Part shown: one piece after another, positions 2,252 through 17,533 of the stretch
How the letters are laid out: every line of letters begins with the position of its first letter
How positions within the stretch are numbered: the first letter of the stretch is position 1
NCBI GenBank assembly: GCA_028287235.1
Contig: JAQBQB010000002.1
Span: 372,001-436,000, forward strand
Source: Gemmatimonadota bacterium
GTDB taxonomy: Bacteria > Gemmatimonadota > Gemmatimonadetes > Gemmatimonadales > Gemmatimonadaceae
Direction of reading: 5' to 3'
DNA length: 64,000 nucleotides
Notes under the pieces: generated by a model
What the model saw: only the letters and a program-made list of their open reading frames with translations
Database searches by the model: none
What the model was told of the DNA's origin: nothing
Made by a program: the position numbers and the translations under genes

Positions 2252-4845
2252 TGGCGGGCACCCGACAGCTCTTCGGCCTCGCGTGGCGCGAAAGCCGCAC
2301 CGCGCGCCGCCGGCTCCTGCTCTACATGTCGTCGATCTCACTCGGCGTCGCGGCGCTCGTGGCGATCGACTCGTTCTCCGAAAACGTGATCCGTTCGGTG
2401 CACGAGCAGTCGCGCGCGCTGTTGGGCGGCGACGTCATGGTGCACCGGAACGCCCCGTCGACCAAGACCGTCGATTCGCTGCGCGACTCGCTCGCGGCGC
2501 GCGGCATGCCGAGCACCACGGCGATCAACTTCACGTCGATGGCGCTCGTGCCGCGGACGGGCGGAACGCGGCTGGTACAGGTGCACGCGATCGCCCGAGG
2601 CTACCCGTTCTACGGGAACATCACCACCGAGCCGGCGCCGGCGTGGAGCGAGCTCCAGAACGGGCACAACATCGCCGTCGACCCGTCGCTGCTCGTGTCG
2701 CTCGACGCGCAGATCGGCGACAGCGTGGCACTGGGCAACGCGAAGTTCCTCATCGTGGGCTCGCTCAAGAGCGTGCCGGGCGACGTGGGCATCAGCGCGG
2801 CGATCGGCCCCCGCGTCTACATACCGGAGAAGTACGTCGGCGAAACGGGCCTCGTCGTTTTCGGCAGCCGCGCCGAGTACGAGGTGCTCTTCCGGCTGCC
2901 GACCACGGTGGCGCCGGACTTCTTCATCGCGCGCTTTCAGAAACGCTTATTACAGAACACTACCGGTAACGTCCGCGCGGCGGGGTACAACGAGTCGCGG
3001 CTCGCCAGCGCGATCGATCAGCTCCACGACTATCTCGCCGTGGTGGGGCTGGTCGCGCTGCTCCTCGGCGGCATTGGCGTCGCGAGCGGCGTCCACGCGT
3101 TCGCCATGCGCAAGATCGACCCGGTGGCCATTCTCCGCTGCTTGGGCGCGTCGAGCTGGCAGGTGCTCGCCATCTATACCGTGCAGGCGGCGGTGATGGG
3201 CCTCATCGGCGCCGCGGCGGGCGTCGCGCTCGGTATCGGCATTCAGTTCCTCATGCCGCGCGCGCTGCAGGACTTCCTGCCGGTGGACGTCGAGGTGCGG
3301 CTCGCGCCGTCGGCGATCCTGCTCGGGCTGGGCGTGGGCGTGTGGGTCGCGCTGCTCTTCTCCATGCGCCCGCTCGTCGCGTTGCGCCGCGTGTCGCCCC
3401 TCCAGGCATTGCGCCGCCAGCCCGACTCCGAGGCGTTGCGGCGCGCGCGCTGGGATCCGCTGCGGCTCACGCTCGACTTCGCGATCGCGGTGAGCGTGCT
3501 CGAGCTCGGCTTGAGCCGCGCCAACACCGTGCAGCGCGGAATCGGCTTCACCGCCGCCATCGCGGGCGCGATCGGCATTCTCTGGATGAGCGCCGCCGGC
3601 CTGTCGTGGCTCGCGCGCCGTGCGCTGCGGCCGTCCTGGTCGTTCCCGCTGCGCCAAGGCATCGCGAGTCTATACCGCCCCGGCAACCAAACGCGTGCCG
3701 TGGTGCTTGCCTTGGGCTTCGGCGTATTCCTCATGGGCACGTTGTACCAGGTGCAGCACAACATTCTGCGCGGCCTCGATCTGCGGCTCGGACAGGCGCG
3801 CGCGAACGTGGTGTTCTTCGACGTGCAACAGAGCCAACAGCCGGGCATCGACTCGATGATCCGCGCCGGCCACCACGAGCTGATCGAACAGACGCCCATC
3901 GTCCCGATGCGCCTCTCGGCGATCAACGGCCGGCTCGTCACCGACATTCTCGCCGAGGTGGACCGACAGCGCGCTGCTGCGCCGCAGGCGGGGCGCGGCG
4001 GGCCAAACGGCGGCCGACGCAACCGCGGCATGCTGCGCCGCGAATTTCGCTCGACCTACCGTGATTCACTCACCGAGTCGGAGCAGGTGGTGGCCGGAAA
4101 GTGGTTCTCCGCCACACGCGGCGACACGCTCGGCGAGGTGTCGCTCGACACCTCGGCCGCGGGCGAGATGGGCGTGAAGCTCGGCGACACGCTCACGTGG
4201 AACGTGCAGGGCGTGATGGTCCCGACCGTAGTCACGAGCCTGCGCGAGGTGAAGTGGCAGAGCTTCACGCCGAACTTCTTCGCCGTGTTCAACACGAAGT
4301 CGCTGGTGAAGGCGCCGAAGCAATTCGCCATTCTCGTGCGCGCGGCGGATCCCACGGCGATCGCGCATCTTCAGCGCGACGTCGTGGCGAAATACCCGAG
4401 CGTGTCGAGTCTCGATCTCACGCTCGTGCAGCAGACCGTCACGAACGTGCTGGGCAAGGTGACGATGGCCGTGCGCTTCCTGGCGCTGATCAGTCTCGCG
4501 TTGGGTGTGCCGGTGCTGTTCAGCGCCGTGGCCGCGACGCGACGCGAGCGGCTGCGCGAAGGCGTGCTCCTCAAGACGCTCGGCGCCACGCGCCGTCAGA
4601 TCACGCGCATCATGCTCGCGGAGTACGCGCTGCTCGGAACGTTGGGCGCGTTGACGGGCGTGGTGCTGTCGACCCTCGCCGGCTGGGCGTTGATGCACTG
4701 GATCTTCCGCTCGCCCTTCGTGCCGGCGTTCGGACCGGTGGGAATCGTGGCGCTGGCGATGATCTCGCTCGCCGTGGCGATCGGACTGCTCACCGGTCGC
4801 GATGTGTTCGCGGAAACGCCGATGGCGGCGCTGCGGGAGAGCTAG
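2251..4845 (+). CDS. FtsX/YbbP-like ABC transporter permease
   Basis: 864-residue inner-membrane permease with the YbbP-like duplicated FtsX layout. An N-terminal TM segment (about 20-40) is followed by a MacB-type periplasmic domain, three TM helices (about 260-380), two more TM segments in the middle (about 430-510), a second periplasmic domain (about 510-730), and three C-terminal TM helices (about 740-860). The cytoplasmic coupling motifs RKIDPVAILRCLGAS and REGVLLKTLGATRRQ are the FtsX-family contacts with the ATPase. It forms the transporter with the upstream ATPase, to which it is coupled by a 1-nt overlap. The neighbouring TesA-like esterase suggests lipid or lipoprotein-related work; the substrate cannot be read from sequence. 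Confidence 0.9.
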
Positions 4846-11982: not shown

Positions 11983-14382
11983 CTAGCGACCGGCGCCGAT
12001 CAAGTCCTTCACGCGCGAGAGCAGCGCCTCGGCCGTGAAGGGCTTGGATAGAATCGCGTCCGGCCGGTTGAACGAACGGCGGACCGATTCCTCGTCCATG
12101 TAACCGGACATGAGCAGGATCGGCGTGCCCGGCTGGATGCCCTGAAAGTGCGCGGCCAGCTCGCCGCCGTTCATGCGCGGCATCATGACGTCGCTGATCA
12201 GCATGTCGACGGGTTCCGGGAGTCCGCGCAACGTGTCGAGGGCGTCGACGCCGTCGCAGCCCTCGAACACCTTGTAGCCGGCGTCGAGCAGCAGCCGCAC
12301 CGTGAGAGCGCGAACACCTTCGTTGTCTTCCGCGATGAGAATCGTGTTGCCGGTCGACGAGCGCGGGGTCGAACCCGAGCCGCGCGCGGCGGCGTCGGAC
12401 GCATCCTTCGCGACGGGCAGGTGGATCGTGAACGTGGTGCCTTCGCCGAGGTTGCTGGCCACGGCAATGTGGCCGCCCGTCTGGGTGATGATGCCGTAGA
12501 CGGTAGCGAGACCGAGTCCCGAGCGGCCGTTGGGATCCTTCGTCGTGAAGAACGGCTCGAAGACGCGCGCCCGCGTCTCGTCGGTCATGCCGCCGCCCGT
12601 GTCGCTCACCTCGAGTACGACGTACTTGCCCGGCGGAATGACGGTGTCGGGGCCGCTCGTCGGCGCGACTTCGGCGTTTCGCGTGACGATGCGCAGCGTG
12701 CCCCGCCCCGACATCGCGTCGCGCGCGTTGAGCGCGAGATTGAGCAGCACTTGCTCGAGCTGGCCGGGATCGGCTCGGACGGTGCCGATGCGCGGGTCGA
12801 GGATCGTCTCCACCGCGACGTTCTCGCCGAGCAGCCGGCGGACGATCTTCGACATGTCGTCGACGACGCCGTTCAGACTGAGCGGCTCGAGGCGCAGCAC
12901 CTGCCGCTTGCTGAAGGCGAGCAGCTGGCGCGTGAGCGCGGCGGCGCGTTCCGTGGCCTTGAGGATCTCGCCGATGTCCTTCCGGCGCGGGTCGTCGGCT
13001 TCCACGCTGCGCGCCAGGATGTCGCTGAAGCCGCGAATCGCCGTGAGCAGATTGTTGAAGTCGTGCGCCACGCCGCCGGCGAGCTGTCCCACGGCGTCCA
13101 TCTTCTGCGCTTGCCGAAGATCCTCTTCCAGGCGGCGCCGCTCGGTGACGTCGCGCGAGACGCACAGCACTTCGTCGACGAGGCCCGTGGTGGGATCGGG
13201 CACCGCCTGGCTCGTCGTCTCGAACCAGATGTAGTGCCCGTCGCTGCGGCGAATGCGGTAGGTGAGCGTCTCGATGCCCTTGTGCCCCAACAGTCGCGCG
13301 CTCGCGGCGCGCACCGGCTCGAGGTCGTCGGGATGACAGGACTCGAATACCGACGTGCCGACCAACTCCTGCGCCGTGTAGCCGAGCAGCGTGAGACAGA
13401 CCGGCGAGGCGTAGAGAATCGTTCCGTCGGGCGACTGCCGCGACAGCATGTCCGTCGAATGCTCGGCGAGAAAGCGATGGCGCTCCTCGCTGTCGCGCAG
13501 GGCCAGCTCGGTGTTCTTGCGCTCGGTGATGTCGCGCGCCACGGCGAACAACGACGTCACCTGCCCGTTGCGCTGCTCGATGTGCACGTTCTGGCCGATC
13601 CAGAGATCGCGTCCGTCGAGCGTGATCGCCGGAAACTCCCAATAGGTGACCGGAATGCGCTCGACGACCTGCTTCTTGTACAGCGCGATGCCCTGGTCGT
13701 GGTAGTCGCGGCGGACGAACTGGAGATAGATCCGCCCCACGATGCCGTCGCCCTCGGGCGGAAAGCCCAGCAGGCGCGACGCGATCGGATTGGCGTAGGT
13801 GAAGACGCCGCGCGAATCGATGCGATAGATGCCGTCGCTCGCGCTCTCCACGAGGTGGCGGAAGCGCGACTCGCTCTCGAGCAGCGACGCTTCGACCTGT
13901 TTGCGCTTCGTGATGTCGCGCGACGTGATCGCGATGCCGTCGTCGACGCGCACGACCTGATGGCGGACCCACCGCGTGTGCCCCGCGTCGTCCTCGAACG
14001 CGAGCTCGTCCTCGAACGACTCGCCGGCTTCGACGACCTGGACGAGCTGGTCGAGCAAGCCGGTTTCGCGGATCGACGGCAGAATGTCGCACACGAGTCG
14101 CCCCGCGAGATCGACGCGGTCGCGCCCGAGGAACGCCTCTCCGCGCTCATTGAGCTCGACGATCCGGAAGTCGGTGATCCGTCCCGTGGAGTCGCGGACG
14201 CTCTCGCACAGGAAGAACGCGTCCAAGCTCGCGGCGATGGCGCCACGGAACCGGCTTTCGACGAGGCTGAGCGTCGCGGAGGAGGCGCGCGCGGCGGGCG
14301 AGGTGGGGGTCACGACTGAAAGACGAGAACGACGCGATGAAGTTACGGCCTTGGAGCACTTCAGGGTGCCCTCCCATTTCAA
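11983..14382 (-). CDS. Hybrid PAS sensor histidine kinase with receiver domain
   Basis: 799-residue soluble hybrid kinase. About three PAS domains (roughly 40-160, 170-295, 300-415) with PAC-type ends (ITSRDITKRK, ARDITERKN, VSRDVTERRR) precede a HisKA segment with the phospho-acceptor in GGVAHDFNNLLTAIRG. An HATPase domain follows (N box LNLALNARDAM, G1 VSDTGGGM, F box EPFFTTK, G2 GSGLGLATVYG-like). The C-terminal receiver domain has AEDNEGVRAL, phospho-accepting Asp in LISDVMMP and Lys in LSKPF. No membrane segment is seen, so it senses a cytoplasmic signal. The DFNNL-type kinase plus receiver often feeds a phosphorelay or a diguanylate output. No cognate partner lies beside it. Start uncertain: a GTG at the VTPTSP position is an alternative. 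Confidence 0.9.
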   Translation of the reverse strand: MKWEGTLKCSKAVTSSRRSRLSVVTPTSPAARASSATLSLVESRFRGAIAASLDAFFLCESVRDSTGRITDFRIVELNERGEAFLGRDRVDLAGRLVCDILPSIRETGLLDQLVQVVEAGESFEDELAFEDDAGHTRWVRHQVVRVDDGIAITSRDITKRKQVEASLLESESRFRHLVESASDGIYRIDSRGVFTYANPIASRLLGFPPEGDGIVGRIYLQFVRRDYHDQGIALYKKQVVERIPVTYWEFPAITLDGRDLWIGQNVHIEQRNGQVTSLFAVARDITERKNTELALRDSEERHRFLAEHSTDMLSRQSPDGTILYASPVCLTLLGYTAQELVGTSVFESCHPDDLEPVRAASARLLGHKGIETLTYRIRRSDGHYIWFETTSQAVPDPTTGLVDEVLCVSRDVTERRRLEEDLRQAQKMDAVGQLAGGVAHDFNNLLTAIRGFSDILARSVEADDPRRKDIGEILKATERAAALTRQLLAFSKRQVLRLEPLSLNGVVDDMSKIVRRLLGENVAVETILDPRIGTVRADPGQLEQVLLNLALNARDAMSGRGTLRIVTRNAEVAPTSGPDTVIPPGKYVVLEVSDTGGGMTDETRARVFEPFFTTKDPNGRSGLGLATVYGIITQTGGHIAVASNLGEGTTFTIHLPVAKDASDAAARGSGSTPRSSTGNTILIAEDNEGVRALTVRLLLDAGYKVFEGCDGVDALDTLRGLPEPVDMLISDVMMPRMNGGELAAHFQGIQPGTPILLMSGYMDEESVRRSFNRPDAILSKPFTAEALLSRVKDLIGAGR

Positions 14383-14486
14383 ATGTCGGAAGAGTTCGGC
14401 GCGGGCGCAACGCCCTGGCGAATGCGCGACGCGGCATTAGGTTCGCGATTGGGACAGGCGGGCGACCCATCGCGTTGCCCGCGTCC

Positions 14487-14493
14487 AAGGAGG
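14487..14493 (+). promoter_or_regulatory. Strong Shine-Dalgarno deciding a GTG start
   Basis: AAGGAGG, a full anti-16S match, lies 5 nt before GTG at 14499. It selects this codon as the start of the following gene over in-frame ATGs upstream that would give a non-signal-like N-terminus. Confidence 0.75.
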
Positions 14494-14498
14494 ATGAG

Positions 14499-16181
14499 GT
14501 GATCGTTCTCATCGCACGTGCCGCGCTGGCACTCTCGCTGCTGCAGGGCGCCCCGGATTCCGCTCGGCTGGTGCGCGGCGCGCGCGCCGCGCAGATGGCG
14601 TTCGAGGCGTTCCGCCGAAACCGGCTGCCGACGGGACCCGGAATGGGCGGCGCGTGCGAAGTGCGCATCGGCCGCTATTGCTACTGGCGCGGCGACAACG
14701 AGGACGACGACACGCCGCCTCCGGAGCACCCTGCGGTTCGTCAACGGCGCGACGAGCTGCTCCGGACGCTCGACAGCGCATCGAGGCTGATTCCGGGCGA
14801 CGGTTGGATCGCGGGCCAGCGCGTTCGCTATCTCGTCGAGGCCGACCGTACCGACGACGCGATCCGCTTCGCACTGTCCGACTGTCGCGCGTCACCCGCC
14901 TGGTGCAACGCGCTGGCCGGCTACGCCGCGCATGTCGGCGCTCGGTACGCTACGGCCGACTCCGCGTACGAAGCGGCGCTGTCGGCCATGGACCCGGCGG
15001 AGCGGTGCCGCTGGCTCGACGTGTCGGACCTCGTCGCCGACGATCTCGAGCATCGCTTCAAGTCGCTCGACTGCGCGCGGCGCGAGGGGTTCGTGCGGCG
15101 CCTGTTCTGGCTCGGCGCGCCTCTCTATTCGATCAGTGAGACCGACCTGCTGACGGAGCATCTGTCGCGCCTCACTCGGGCGCGCTTGGCCGAGCGATCG
15201 GCATCGATCGACGGCGCCGCGTGGGCCGACGACGTGCGATCGCTCGTGATTCGCTACGGCTGGTCGCGCTGGTACACCCGGACGCTGCCCGTCATGGGAT
15301 CGCTGCGCGACGCGTCGTACACGGGCCACGACGCCGGCGTGCCGTACGATTTTCTGCCGAACGCGCACGCCGTGGAGCATCTGGGCAGCATCGTGTCGGA
15401 CGACTGGCACCTCGAGAACGATCGCGCGCTGACCGGCTACGCGCCGGCGTATGCGCGATCGGTGCACGAGGTGCCGCATCAGATCGCGCTCTTCCGCCGC
15501 GGCGACTCGACGCTCGTGATCGCGGCGTGGGACGCGCGGCGCGACACGACTCTCCTGGGCCGGTCGCTCGACGCGGCGCTCGTGCTGAGCGCCGATGGCG
15601 CGCGCCGCGCGATCGAGACGCAGACCGGTGCGAAGGTCGTGGGCCGCATCGCGGCGACGGGCCTCGTGGACTCGGGGGTCGTGAGTCTCGAACTGCTCGC
15701 GGCGAAGGACCGTCGCGCGTCACGCACGCGCGTGGGCGTCGCGGCGCGCGACACGACCCATCGCGTGACGCTGTCCGATTTGCTGCTCTACGCGCCGACC
15801 GGATCGGCCAGCAACGAGCTGAGCGCGGTGCGCGACAGTGCGTTGGCGAGCGCCATCATCCCGGCCACGCGCGGCGTGGGGGTCTACTGGGAGACCTATG
15901 GTCTCCGCGCCGAGGGCGAGCCGGTGCAGTTCGCGCTGACGGTCGAGCGGATCGGGGTGGACTGGATGCATCGAGCCGCCGAGAAGCTGCATCTCGCCGA
16001 TCCCACGACGAGCTTGCGTATTCAGTGGGACGACGTGCCGCAGCGAGTGAACGGCATCGCGGGTCGCGGGGTGCGAGTGGATCTGTCGCGGCTCGTGAGT
16101 GGAACGTATCGGATGCAGTTGACGGTGACGCCTGTTGGCGAGGGGGCGGTGTCGGCGGTGAGGGAGATCGAGGTGAGATGA
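14499..16181 (+). CDS. Secreted protein of unknown function, 560 residues
   Basis: Not recognised. The GTG start behind a perfect Shine-Dalgarno gives a plausible signal peptide (VIVLIARAALALSLLQG). The N-terminal third is helical with paired-helix spacing (SASRLIPGDGWIAGQRVRYL, then DDAIRFALSDC and TADSAYEAALSA), looking like TPR-type repeats. Conserved-looking Cys residues (VRIGRYCYWRGD, LSDCRASPAWCN) suggest disulfides. The middle has a Trp/Tyr-rich stretch (RYGWSRWYTRTLPVMG) and the C-terminal third is beta-rich. Architecture resembles hypothetical secreted TPR proteins of Gemmatimonadota. It is divergent from the hybrid kinase, sharing a 116-bp intergenic region, so co-regulation is possible. 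Confidence 0.78.
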   Translation: MIVLIARAALALSLLQGAPDSARLVRGARAAQMAFEAFRRNRLPTGPGMGGACEVRIGRYCYWRGDNEDDDTPPPEHPAVRQRRDELLRTLDSASRLIPGDGWIAGQRVRYLVEADRTDDAIRFALSDCRASPAWCNALAGYAAHVGARYATADSAYEAALSAMDPAERCRWLDVSDLVADDLEHRFKSLDCARREGFVRRLFWLGAPLYSISETDLLTEHLSRLTRARLAERSASIDGAAWADDVRSLVIRYGWSRWYTRTLPVMGSLRDASYTGHDAGVPYDFLPNAHAVEHLGSIVSDDWHLENDRALTGYAPAYARSVHEVPHQIALFRRGDSTLVIAAWDARRDTTLLGRSLDAALVLSADGARRAIETQTGAKVVGRIAATGLVDSGVVSLELLAAKDRRASRTRVGVAARDTTHRVTLSDLLLYAPTGSASNELSAVRDSALASAIIPATRGVGVYWETYGLRAEGEPVQFALTVERIGVDWMHRAAEKLHLADPTTSLRIQWDDVPQRVNGIAGRGVRVDLSRLVSGTYRMQLTVTPVGEGAVSAVREIEVR

Positions 16182-16183
16182 CC

Positions 16184-16233
16184 GCAGCTAACGCGAAAAT
16201 GCAGCTAACGCGGACAACTGCGGACAAGCGCTG
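16184..16233. repeat. Repeat block, left side of the GxxExxY cassette
   Basis: GCAGCTAACGCG occurs at 16184-16195 and again at 16201-16212. The second copy continues into tandem CGGACAACTG/CGGACAAGCG decamers (16211-16230). The 33-nt stretch 16201-16233 reappears inverted at 16768-16800: the first 17 nt match at 16 positions, and the rest matches with one indel and a few changes. Confidence 0.7.
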
Positions 16234-16241
16234 ACCCTACG

Positions 16242-16694
16242 TTAGCGCTCTCCGCGACGCAGTACCGGCGAAGGCTTGTTCTTGTTCTCGAAACACAGCC
16301 GATAGAAGAACGGCTTTGGGCCGAAATGGAATAACAAGCCAACTTCGACGCGCGTTGCTCGAAGGTAATTCAGGAGCTGTTTCTTGCTCGCGGGTGTCAC
16401 GTATTCCGATGACTTCACTTCGATGAGGATCTTGTCTTCGACAAGAATGTCGGCGCGGAAGCGTCCCACTTTGACTTCGCCGTACCATACGGTGATCGGT
16501 ACTTCGCATCGCACATTGAGCCCGCGCGCGCGGAGCTCTTCGACAAAGGCCAGGATGTACACGCTCTCCAGATACCCATACCCAAGGGTGTCGTAGGTCG
16601 CGTAGAACGCGTTGATGATCTGCCCTGTTAGCTCGCCGTGGAGGAGCCTGACGGTGTCGGGCCGTCGCTCGGCGTCAAATCGCTCGATGTCCAT
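16242..16694 (-). CDS. GxxExxY protein, PD-(D/E)XK nuclease-like
   Basis: 150-residue protein of the GxxExxY family, named for the motif seen here as GYGYLESVY. The family is a compact PD-(D/E)XK nuclease-like fold; the active-site pattern is present as RADILVEDKILIEVKS (Asp, then Glu-x-Lys). Proteins of this family are common in Gemmatimonadota, Planctomycetota and Verrucomicrobiota, often in several copies, and have no demonstrated function. Start at 16694 (MDIERFD) leaves the core complete. Base composition is distinctive: 61 of 120 bases in 16261-16380 are G/C, against 45 of 60 in 15541-15600 of the neighbouring gene. It is flanked by inverted 33-nt repeats, so it looks transferred. Confidence 0.85.
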   Translation of the reverse strand: MDIERFDAERRPDTVRLLHGELTGQIINAFYATYDTLGYGYLESVYILAFVEELRARGLNVRCEVPITVWYGEVKVGRFRADILVEDKILIEVKSSEYVTPASKKQLLNYLRATRVEVGLLFHFGPKPFFYRLCFENKNKPSPVLRRGER

Positions 16695-16767
16695 ACGGCA
16701 AACGTCTCGTTGGGCGCCGCGCGCCGCAGCACCAAAATGCTCGCGGTGAGACCATAATCTTGCCGTA

Positions 16768-16800
16768 GCAGCGTTGGTCCGTTTTGTCCGCGTTCGCTGC
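16768..16800. repeat. Inverted partner repeat, right side of the GxxExxY cassette
   Basis: Reverse complement of this stretch begins GCAGCGAACGCGGACAA, differing at one position from 16201-16217 on the other side of the GxxExxY gene. The following CGGACCAACGCTG matches CGGACAAGCGCTG. The two repeats point towards each other across about 535 bp containing the gene. Confidence 0.7.
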
Positions 16801-17005
16801 GGTTGAAACAACGAGCTACTCGATCGTAAGGGTACAACTCGATACATCTGTCTAACCGCATGGGCCCGAGGTTGGCGGCCCATCTTTCGCGGAATCCATT
16901 AGCTCCCTAGCGAGTTCATGGATGCACCAACACATTCGGTGGAAATCGCCGCCGGTGAGCTCCTCCTTGTCGAGGACGGCCGGGTCCCTTACCTTGCGTG
17001 ATAGT
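16801..17005. other. Low-GC intergenic stretch before the MarR gene
   Basis: Together with 16695-16800 this is a gene-free gap of 311 bp. Line-scale GC is low (28 of 60 in 16801-16860). It contains the dyad ATGGGCC-N10-GGCCCAT (16860-16883), which could be a terminator stem or a regulator site. No convincing gene is seen on either strand; short frames here lack a ribosome binding site and coding-like codon use. Confidence 0.5.
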
Positions 17006-17533
17006 ATGGGTGCCAATTCAATGCAAACATCGTCAGGGACTACCACCGAAACGCATCCCGTTTCGCGGTCCATGAACGCCGTGCGGAGCATCGTTCGCGC
17101 GCTGCGCATCAACACGCGCGCGATCGAGCTGAAAATGGGCATCAGCCTCGCGCAGCTGTTCGTGCTGCAGCAACTCGCGGAACGGCCCGCGGAGTCGCTC
17201 AACGAGCTCGCCGAGCGGACGGCGACCCATCAAAGCTCGGTGTCCGTCGTCGTGCGACGCCTCGTGGAGCGCGGCTATGTGTCGCGCACCGCCTCGGCGG
17301 CAGACAAGCGGCGCATCGAGATCGACGTCACCCCGACCGGACGAGCGCTGCTCGCCGGCGCGCCGGTGACCATTCAAATGCAGTTGGTGTCGGCGCTTCG
17401 CCACATGAACATCGGCGATCAGAATACCCTCGCCGAGCTACTCGACCGCTGGCTGCACGACGCCAAGATCGACATCGCGACGCCGCCGATGCTGGGCGAA
17501 GAAGACGTCGAGGTACGACAACGTAGTGTCTAG
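17006..17533 (+). CDS. MarR-family transcriptional regulator
   Basis: 175-residue winged-helix regulator. The N-terminal helix (RSMNAVRSIVRALRIN) and DNA-binding core are typical: LAQLFVLQQLAE, the recognition region LAERTATHQSSVSVVVRRLVERGYVSR, and a wing with ASAADKRRIEIDVTPTGRALL (the DxRxxxxxLT-type motif). A C-terminal dimerisation helix follows. Start uncertain between ATG 17006 and ATG 17021. The stop overlaps the start of the CLC gene by 8 nt, so the two are translationally coupled, and the regulator may control the transporter and itself. MarR proteins usually respond to small aromatic or oxidising ligands; none can be read here. Confidence 0.88.
   Translation: MGANSMQTSSGTTTETHPVSRSMNAVRSIVRALRINTRAIELKMGISLAQLFVLQQLAERPAESLNELAERTATHQSSVSVVVRRLVERGYVSRTASAADKRRIEIDVTPTGRALLAGAPVTIQMQLVSALRHMNIGDQNTLAELLDRWLHDAKIDIATPPMLGEEDVEVRQRSV

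Follow-up and report, generated by a model that had tools for sequence, protein, structure and literature searches.

RAYT genes and REP sequences have been described as sharing a set of features, i.e., inverted repeats flanking the gene, co-evolution of gene and repeat, abundance of the cognate repeat, inward-pointing doublets, and singlets that arise as decay products (PMC2817692, PMC8049555). The enzyme, RAYT, is an HUH tyrosine transposase with long-term vertical inheritance, and REP is a palindrome with a GTAG-type head. At the locus described here, a gene for a GxxExxY protein is likewise bracketed by a short repeat and its inverted copy. As in the REPIN-RAYT system, repeat and protein co-vary, cognate repeats are abundant where the gene occurs (in a small genome sample), inward doublets able to form hairpins are found as well as singles resembling decayed remnants, and one gene per repeat class stands against many repeats (in the genomes G063 and G070). 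However, the enzyme is a Cas4-like nuclease of the PD-(D/E)XK type, the repeat is a triad of direct units (e.g., CACGAAT x3), and the presence of the gene varies among relatives. Because enzyme and repeat form are unrelated in the two cases, REPIN-RAYT is best regarded, by analogy, as a functional parallel of which the GxxExxY system is not a member.

Other described systems resemble parts of the arrangement. MITEs of IS families are also short, gene-less intergenic elements that share terminal repeats with a gene-bearing element, but the ends of the GxxExxY elements are triads of direct units, matching arms in G063 and G070 were not found to enclose a DDE transposase gene, and a target duplication was not observed. 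Nucleases of the Cas4/RecB type have the D, ExK and QxxxY residues in common with GxxExxY proteins and include the best fold match, 4ic1, whereas GxxExxY is much shorter and has no CRISPR context at the locus studied, where the immediate neighbors encode a 614-aa protein and a MarR-family regulator. Short direct intergenic repeats of sporadic distribution have been reported as TAACTGA heptamers in Beggiatoaceae (PMC4679880) and as heptanucleotide arrays in Geobacter (PMC2700814). In contrast to the GxxExxY triads, these repeats are not known to be linked to a bracketed nuclease gene, and they appear closer to the arrays at PF05635 loci discussed below.

The GxxExxY locus and its protein

The window, i.e., the whole stretch of 64,000 nucleotides analyzed, contains the following features at this locus:

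14337..16181, + strand: adjoining gene, 614 aa, no Pfam match (ORF, Pfam profiles)
16181..16200, + strand: outer partial repeat copy, ACCGCAGCTAACGCGAAAAT (repeat search, stop position, sequence)
16201..16241, + strand: arm flanking the gene's 3' end, GCAGCTAAC plus units (repeat search, alignment)
16242..16694, - strand: GxxExxY protein gene, 150 aa, intact (PF13366, TIGR04256)
16764..16800, - strand: inverted arm flanking the gene's 5' end, GCAGCGAACGCGGACAAAACGGACCAACGCTGCTACG (repeat search, alignment)
16801..16803, - strand: ACC, outer extension of the 5'-side arm, equal to ACC at 16181-16183 (sequence)
16922..17533, + strand: MarR-family regulator gene on the other flank, true start uncertain (ORF, Pfam profiles)

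The bracketing of the gene by inverted repeats, reported in an earlier note on this DNA, was confirmed. Positions 16201-16217 equal the inverted 16784-16800 at 16 of 17 places, and a gapped match, with changes and gaps after these first 17 positions, extends over 16201-16241 and 16764-16800. When 20,000 pairs of segments were drawn at random from the window, 6 gave an equally good match at fixed place and distance. The 3'-side arm consists of units with a period of 10, i.e., GCGGACAA at 16210 and again at 16220, followed by a degenerate third unit at 16230. The third partial copy claimed at 16184-16195 was recovered in the repeat search as a direct repeat of the arm, and its core begins 2 bp past the upstream gene's stop codon. 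The GC content of the GxxExxY gene is indeed low (0.565 vs. 0.670 for the window), and the count given before, 61 G/C among the 120 bases of 16261-16380, was reproduced exactly. No Rfam match was found. An integron attC-type site was considered early and set aside on inspection, since the arms carry direct triads.

The assignment of the protein to the GxxExxY family holds as well, with matches to PF13366 (E 2e-31, 109 bits vs. a curated cut-off of 22) and TIGR04256 (E 4e-31, 107.8 bits vs. a curated cut-off of 35). Its PD-(D/E)XK site is complete (D82, E92 and K94, plus Q106xxxY110), and D82, E92, K94 and Q106/Y110 vary little or not at all in an alignment of 63 relatives. An AlphaFold2 model (mean pLDDT 90.9) gave 4ic1 (SSO0001), a Cas4 nuclease, as the best solved match in Foldseek (E 3e-4), followed by lambda-type exonucleases, and weak matches to Cas4 profiles were obtained in about one third of the GxxExxY members. 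A PDB search by sequence returned nothing credible. An HUH/Y1 tyrosine transposase domain is absent, PF13366 being the only match of the window protein in that profile search, and GxxExxY proteins show no strand-transfer domain. No biochemical work on GxxExxY was found in the open-access literature searched. At two loci, two GxxExxY domains are present within a single open frame of ~260-270 aa (L061:1551-1910 and L067:3001-3360). In G037, G062, G064, and G069, many copies of GxxExxY are fragmentary or interrupted by stops, which suggests that the gene decays rapidly in these genomes.

Both flanking genes, including the 614-aa gene, whose stop abuts the element, and the MarR-family regulator gene, are kept in congeners without the element. 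The comparison of relatives proposed in the earlier note, aimed at an empty site with a target duplication, showed the flanking genes to be carried by all five congeners and no GxxExxY gene in the flanking DNA retrieved from them, which spans the interval completely or almost so (n = 5). Of 59 genomes sampled from the taxonomic family of the window, 42 have PF13366; a search gave eight distant matches in plasmids and none in phages.

Inverted triads and their relation to the protein

The arrangement was analyzed in 138 GxxExxY loci, 93 from the same taxonomic family and 45 from genomes of many phyla. An inverted repeat with a score of at least 16 was present around 57% of them vs. 2.8% of 527 shifted controls, whereas 97 predicted genes of like size, taken from 456 kb of the window's own genome, had none; ~40% of the GxxExxY loci are without a detectable inverted repeat at this score. 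DUF559, considered as a second control family, was too rare to serve. The arms in this sample match themselves in excess at lags of 9-11 bp and again near 18-20, and thus contain about three units each, with a period of 8 to 10 depending on the class. Despite sequences that differ between classes, the layout is shared: approximately three direct units of 7-8 nt, with an 8-10 bp period and pointing inward (examples are CCACGAATNNACACGAATNNACACGAAT, CACGGAGACACGGAGAACACGGAG, and GACAGGATAACAGGATTGACAAGAT). At 79 loci analyzed against a permuted-pair control, a slight excess of short flanking matches was seen, but no clear target-site duplication.

Since copies of the GxxExxY gene within one genome are at most 69% identical (107 pairs), the gene itself seldom multiplies; it is the repeat that multiplies. 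The earlier view of a small mobile or passenger cassette is supported in part, as far as it concerns a bracketed gene that some relatives carry and others lack.

The repeat class follows the protein. Over all loci, protein identity correlated with arm similarity (r 0.28 vs. 0.11 for control segments; 0 of 500 permutations), as it did in the cross-phylum set (r 0.33 vs. 0.00; 0 of 500 permutations); within the taxonomic family of the window alone, the correlation is weak (r 0.10; 31 of 500 permutations). Mean arm similarity was 17.8 at protein identities of at least 60% and 6-9 under 50%, with control segments at ~6-7. Among 12 loci of the CACGAAT class from several phyla, unit columns are 75% identical vs. 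37% for the spacers, with the arms located by their units, a bias that favors the units; the gap in these alignments suggests constraint rather than merely recent sharing.

The distribution of two classes over genomes agrees with this relation. In the eight genomes with CACGAAT-type GxxExxY arms, 1-97 copies of the CACGAAT triad were found (97 in G063 and 1-27 in the other seven), and none in the CACGGAG genomes G070 and G071 or in the window's own genome, with at most one match for the reversed-pattern control. Conversely, CACGGAG triads number 125 in G070 and 20 in G071, and are missing from seven of the eight CACGAAT genomes, with three weak matches in the eighth. These ten genomes, representing two classes, were picked for matching arms, and all carry the gene by selection. 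The association between gene and repeat is well supported, and inheritance or transfer of the whole element as a unit could explain part of the co-variation.

A comparable layout was seen at loci of another family. Genes for four-helix-bundle proteins of the 23S rRNA IVP family (PF05635; loci L191-L220), present in 47 of the 59 genomes of the same taxonomic family, lie between inverted arrays of short tandem repeats that differ from locus to locus (79% of 29 loci vs. 2.8% of controls), often with a period of 7 nt (GGTATCA, GAGTTGG, GAGCGTC). Such genes bracketed by heptamer arrays would point to a wider class of genes with cognate arrays.

Dispersed copies, miniature elements and turnover

In the window's own genome, where counts were obtained from pattern searches and fetched stretches, the 16-mer GCAGCTAACGCGGACA is present in ten copies with at most one mismatch, two inside the window and eight elsewhere; none was found in the five congeners at this stringency. 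No inverted partners above control were detected near the solo copies, and high-copy k-mers in 456 kb of this genome revealed no repeat family, so the class of the window does not form a large population. It is sparse and decayed, with about ten copies and single arms outside this locus. The genome contains four GxxExxY genes, whose products are merely 44-55% identical; the other three have flanking repeats of their own, of different sequence and with internal direct units, although the inverted match at one of them (L021) is weak (score 13.5). A triad scan of one contig of this genome gave mostly hits in coding or low-complexity DNA and one real solo array at C4:77595 (L174:17596), TGTCCGTgcg x3, whose class is that of the arms around L018, another of the four GxxExxY genes.

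The earlier note had held that a repeat found all over intergenic DNA unrelated to GxxExxY genes would speak against a cassette, and the approximately eight further copies away from such genes correspond in part to that pattern. It is, however, the pattern predicted when each GxxExxY class has its own repeat, the dispersed copies belonging to the same system.

Six of the eight solo copies are located 2-5 bases behind the stop codon of a long frame, against a background of 5.6%, and 24-29% of gene-bearing elements lie at gene 3' ends vs. 4-5%. These positions, together with a unit spacing of about one helical turn, would suit a regulatory system, in which GxxExxY is a DNA-binding regulator with a nuclease fold, the dispersed repeats act as its operators or terminators at the ends of genes, the arms of the gene itself are autoregulatory, and copies spread by recombination or slippage rather than by transposition. 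The invariance, or near-invariance, of the catalytic residues in 63 relatives argues against it, as do the geometry of the inward pairs, which is that of a mobile unit, and the turnover of sites among relatives, with different classes at the same intergenic spot; we consider such a system distinctly unlikely.

Inward pairs of 60-220 bp without a gene are numerous where a class is abundant, with 38 in G063 and 36 in G070 (the latter from 99 of 125 triad matches listed). Among the listed matches, each of the two genomes has one longer inward pair, enclosing a GxxExxY gene, and adjacent inward pairs of up to 3 kb were not found to hold any other gene. The larger elements of G063 hold a nested pair of the CGCAGAT type. 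No clear target duplication was seen around the miniature elements. Terminal inverted repeats with gene-less derivatives are typical of transposons, and GxxExxY has no strand-transfer domain, as would be expected if the repeats were the ends of an ordinary transposon and its miniature derivatives, moved by a transposase in trans with GxxExxY as passenger or helper. Yet, GxxExxY was the only gene in adjacent inward pairs up to 3 kb (listed matches, G063 and G070), across phyla the sequence of the repeat changes along with that of the GxxExxY protein, and no target duplication was detected. This explanation is therefore rather unlikely, and the proposal in the earlier note of a passenger perhaps moved by a transposase in trans was not borne out, as no other gene was detected between such arms in G063 and G070 and the repeat class follows the GxxExxY class.

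Elements differ between relatives. Over a 15-kb stretch in which it is mostly 71-88% identical to G063, G073 is without both CACGAAT elements of G063 and carries a hairpin of a different type in the place of one of them. Also missing from G073 is the G063 element that bears the GxxExxY gene; G075 has this element at the orthologous place. The spot of a 64-bp CACGAAT element in G063 is occupied in G075 by a CACGGAG-type hairpin. No exact empty site or target duplication was obtained among relatives that are 70-88% identical, as these are too diverged for exact junctions to be read, and presence and absence alone do not separate gain from loss. Further families of hairpin-like inverted intergenic repeats, one of them with AAGTGCA-type units, were seen at L285:526-629, 3033-3183, and 13035-13134, and are missing from the collinear G073.

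The presence or absence of the gene at one locus, both among congeners of the window's genome and in G073 vs. G063 and G075, and its sparse distribution recall a homing-like selfish gene, whose nuclease cuts empty intergenic sites so that the cassette is copied by repair, the repeats marking cut or recombination ends. As the gene copies of one genome share 69% identity at most and gene-less pairs are the abundant form, we regard this as very improbable.

A putative repeat-spreading nuclease

The reading we prefer, with a probability of roughly 60%, is that the feature in the window is a member of a widespread two-part system, consisting of a GxxExxY nuclease gene and its cognate triad repeat, in which the nuclease spreads the repeats. 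Such a system would correspond to REPIN-RAYT, with the tyrosine transposase replaced by a Cas4-like nuclease. Its gene is bracketed by two inward copies of the repeat, each with approximately three short direct units at an 8-10 bp period, and, where it looks active, many gene-less inward pairs of 60-220 bp are dispersed over the genome; elements with the gene favor the 3' ends of neighboring genes. The Cas4-like PD-(D/E)XK nuclease may recognize the repeat of its own class and cleave or nick there, and host repair or replication after the cut may then spread the miniature elements, as RAYT transposases are thought to do with REPINs. We infer binding and cleavage, as well as the identity of the mover as this nuclease and not another enzyme. 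A nuclease of 150 residues without known strand-transfer activity would need host factors.

No description of a GxxExxY-repeat system was found in the open-access literature searched, and an earlier description elsewhere is possible; searches with the literal repeat strings gave no relevant paper, and the name GxxExxY turned up in two papers, in one of them incidentally, and PF13366 in another. The data suggest an undescribed repeat-spreading system in many unrelated bacteria. More tentatively, and at somewhat less than even odds, the small GxxExxY PD-(D/E)XK nucleases might be the enzymes that disperse a separate class of miniature mobile DNA in bacteria, with triads spaced by a helical turn as recognition repeats.

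GxxExxY proteins form a widely annotated family without a known role, and their pairing with a repeat gives each member a testable substrate. The pairing would also explain some of the simple-looking intergenic repeats of environmental genomes. As a second, enzymatically unrelated arrangement of the REPIN-RAYT kind, it may allow the question of why bacteria keep repeat populations to be compared across two systems.
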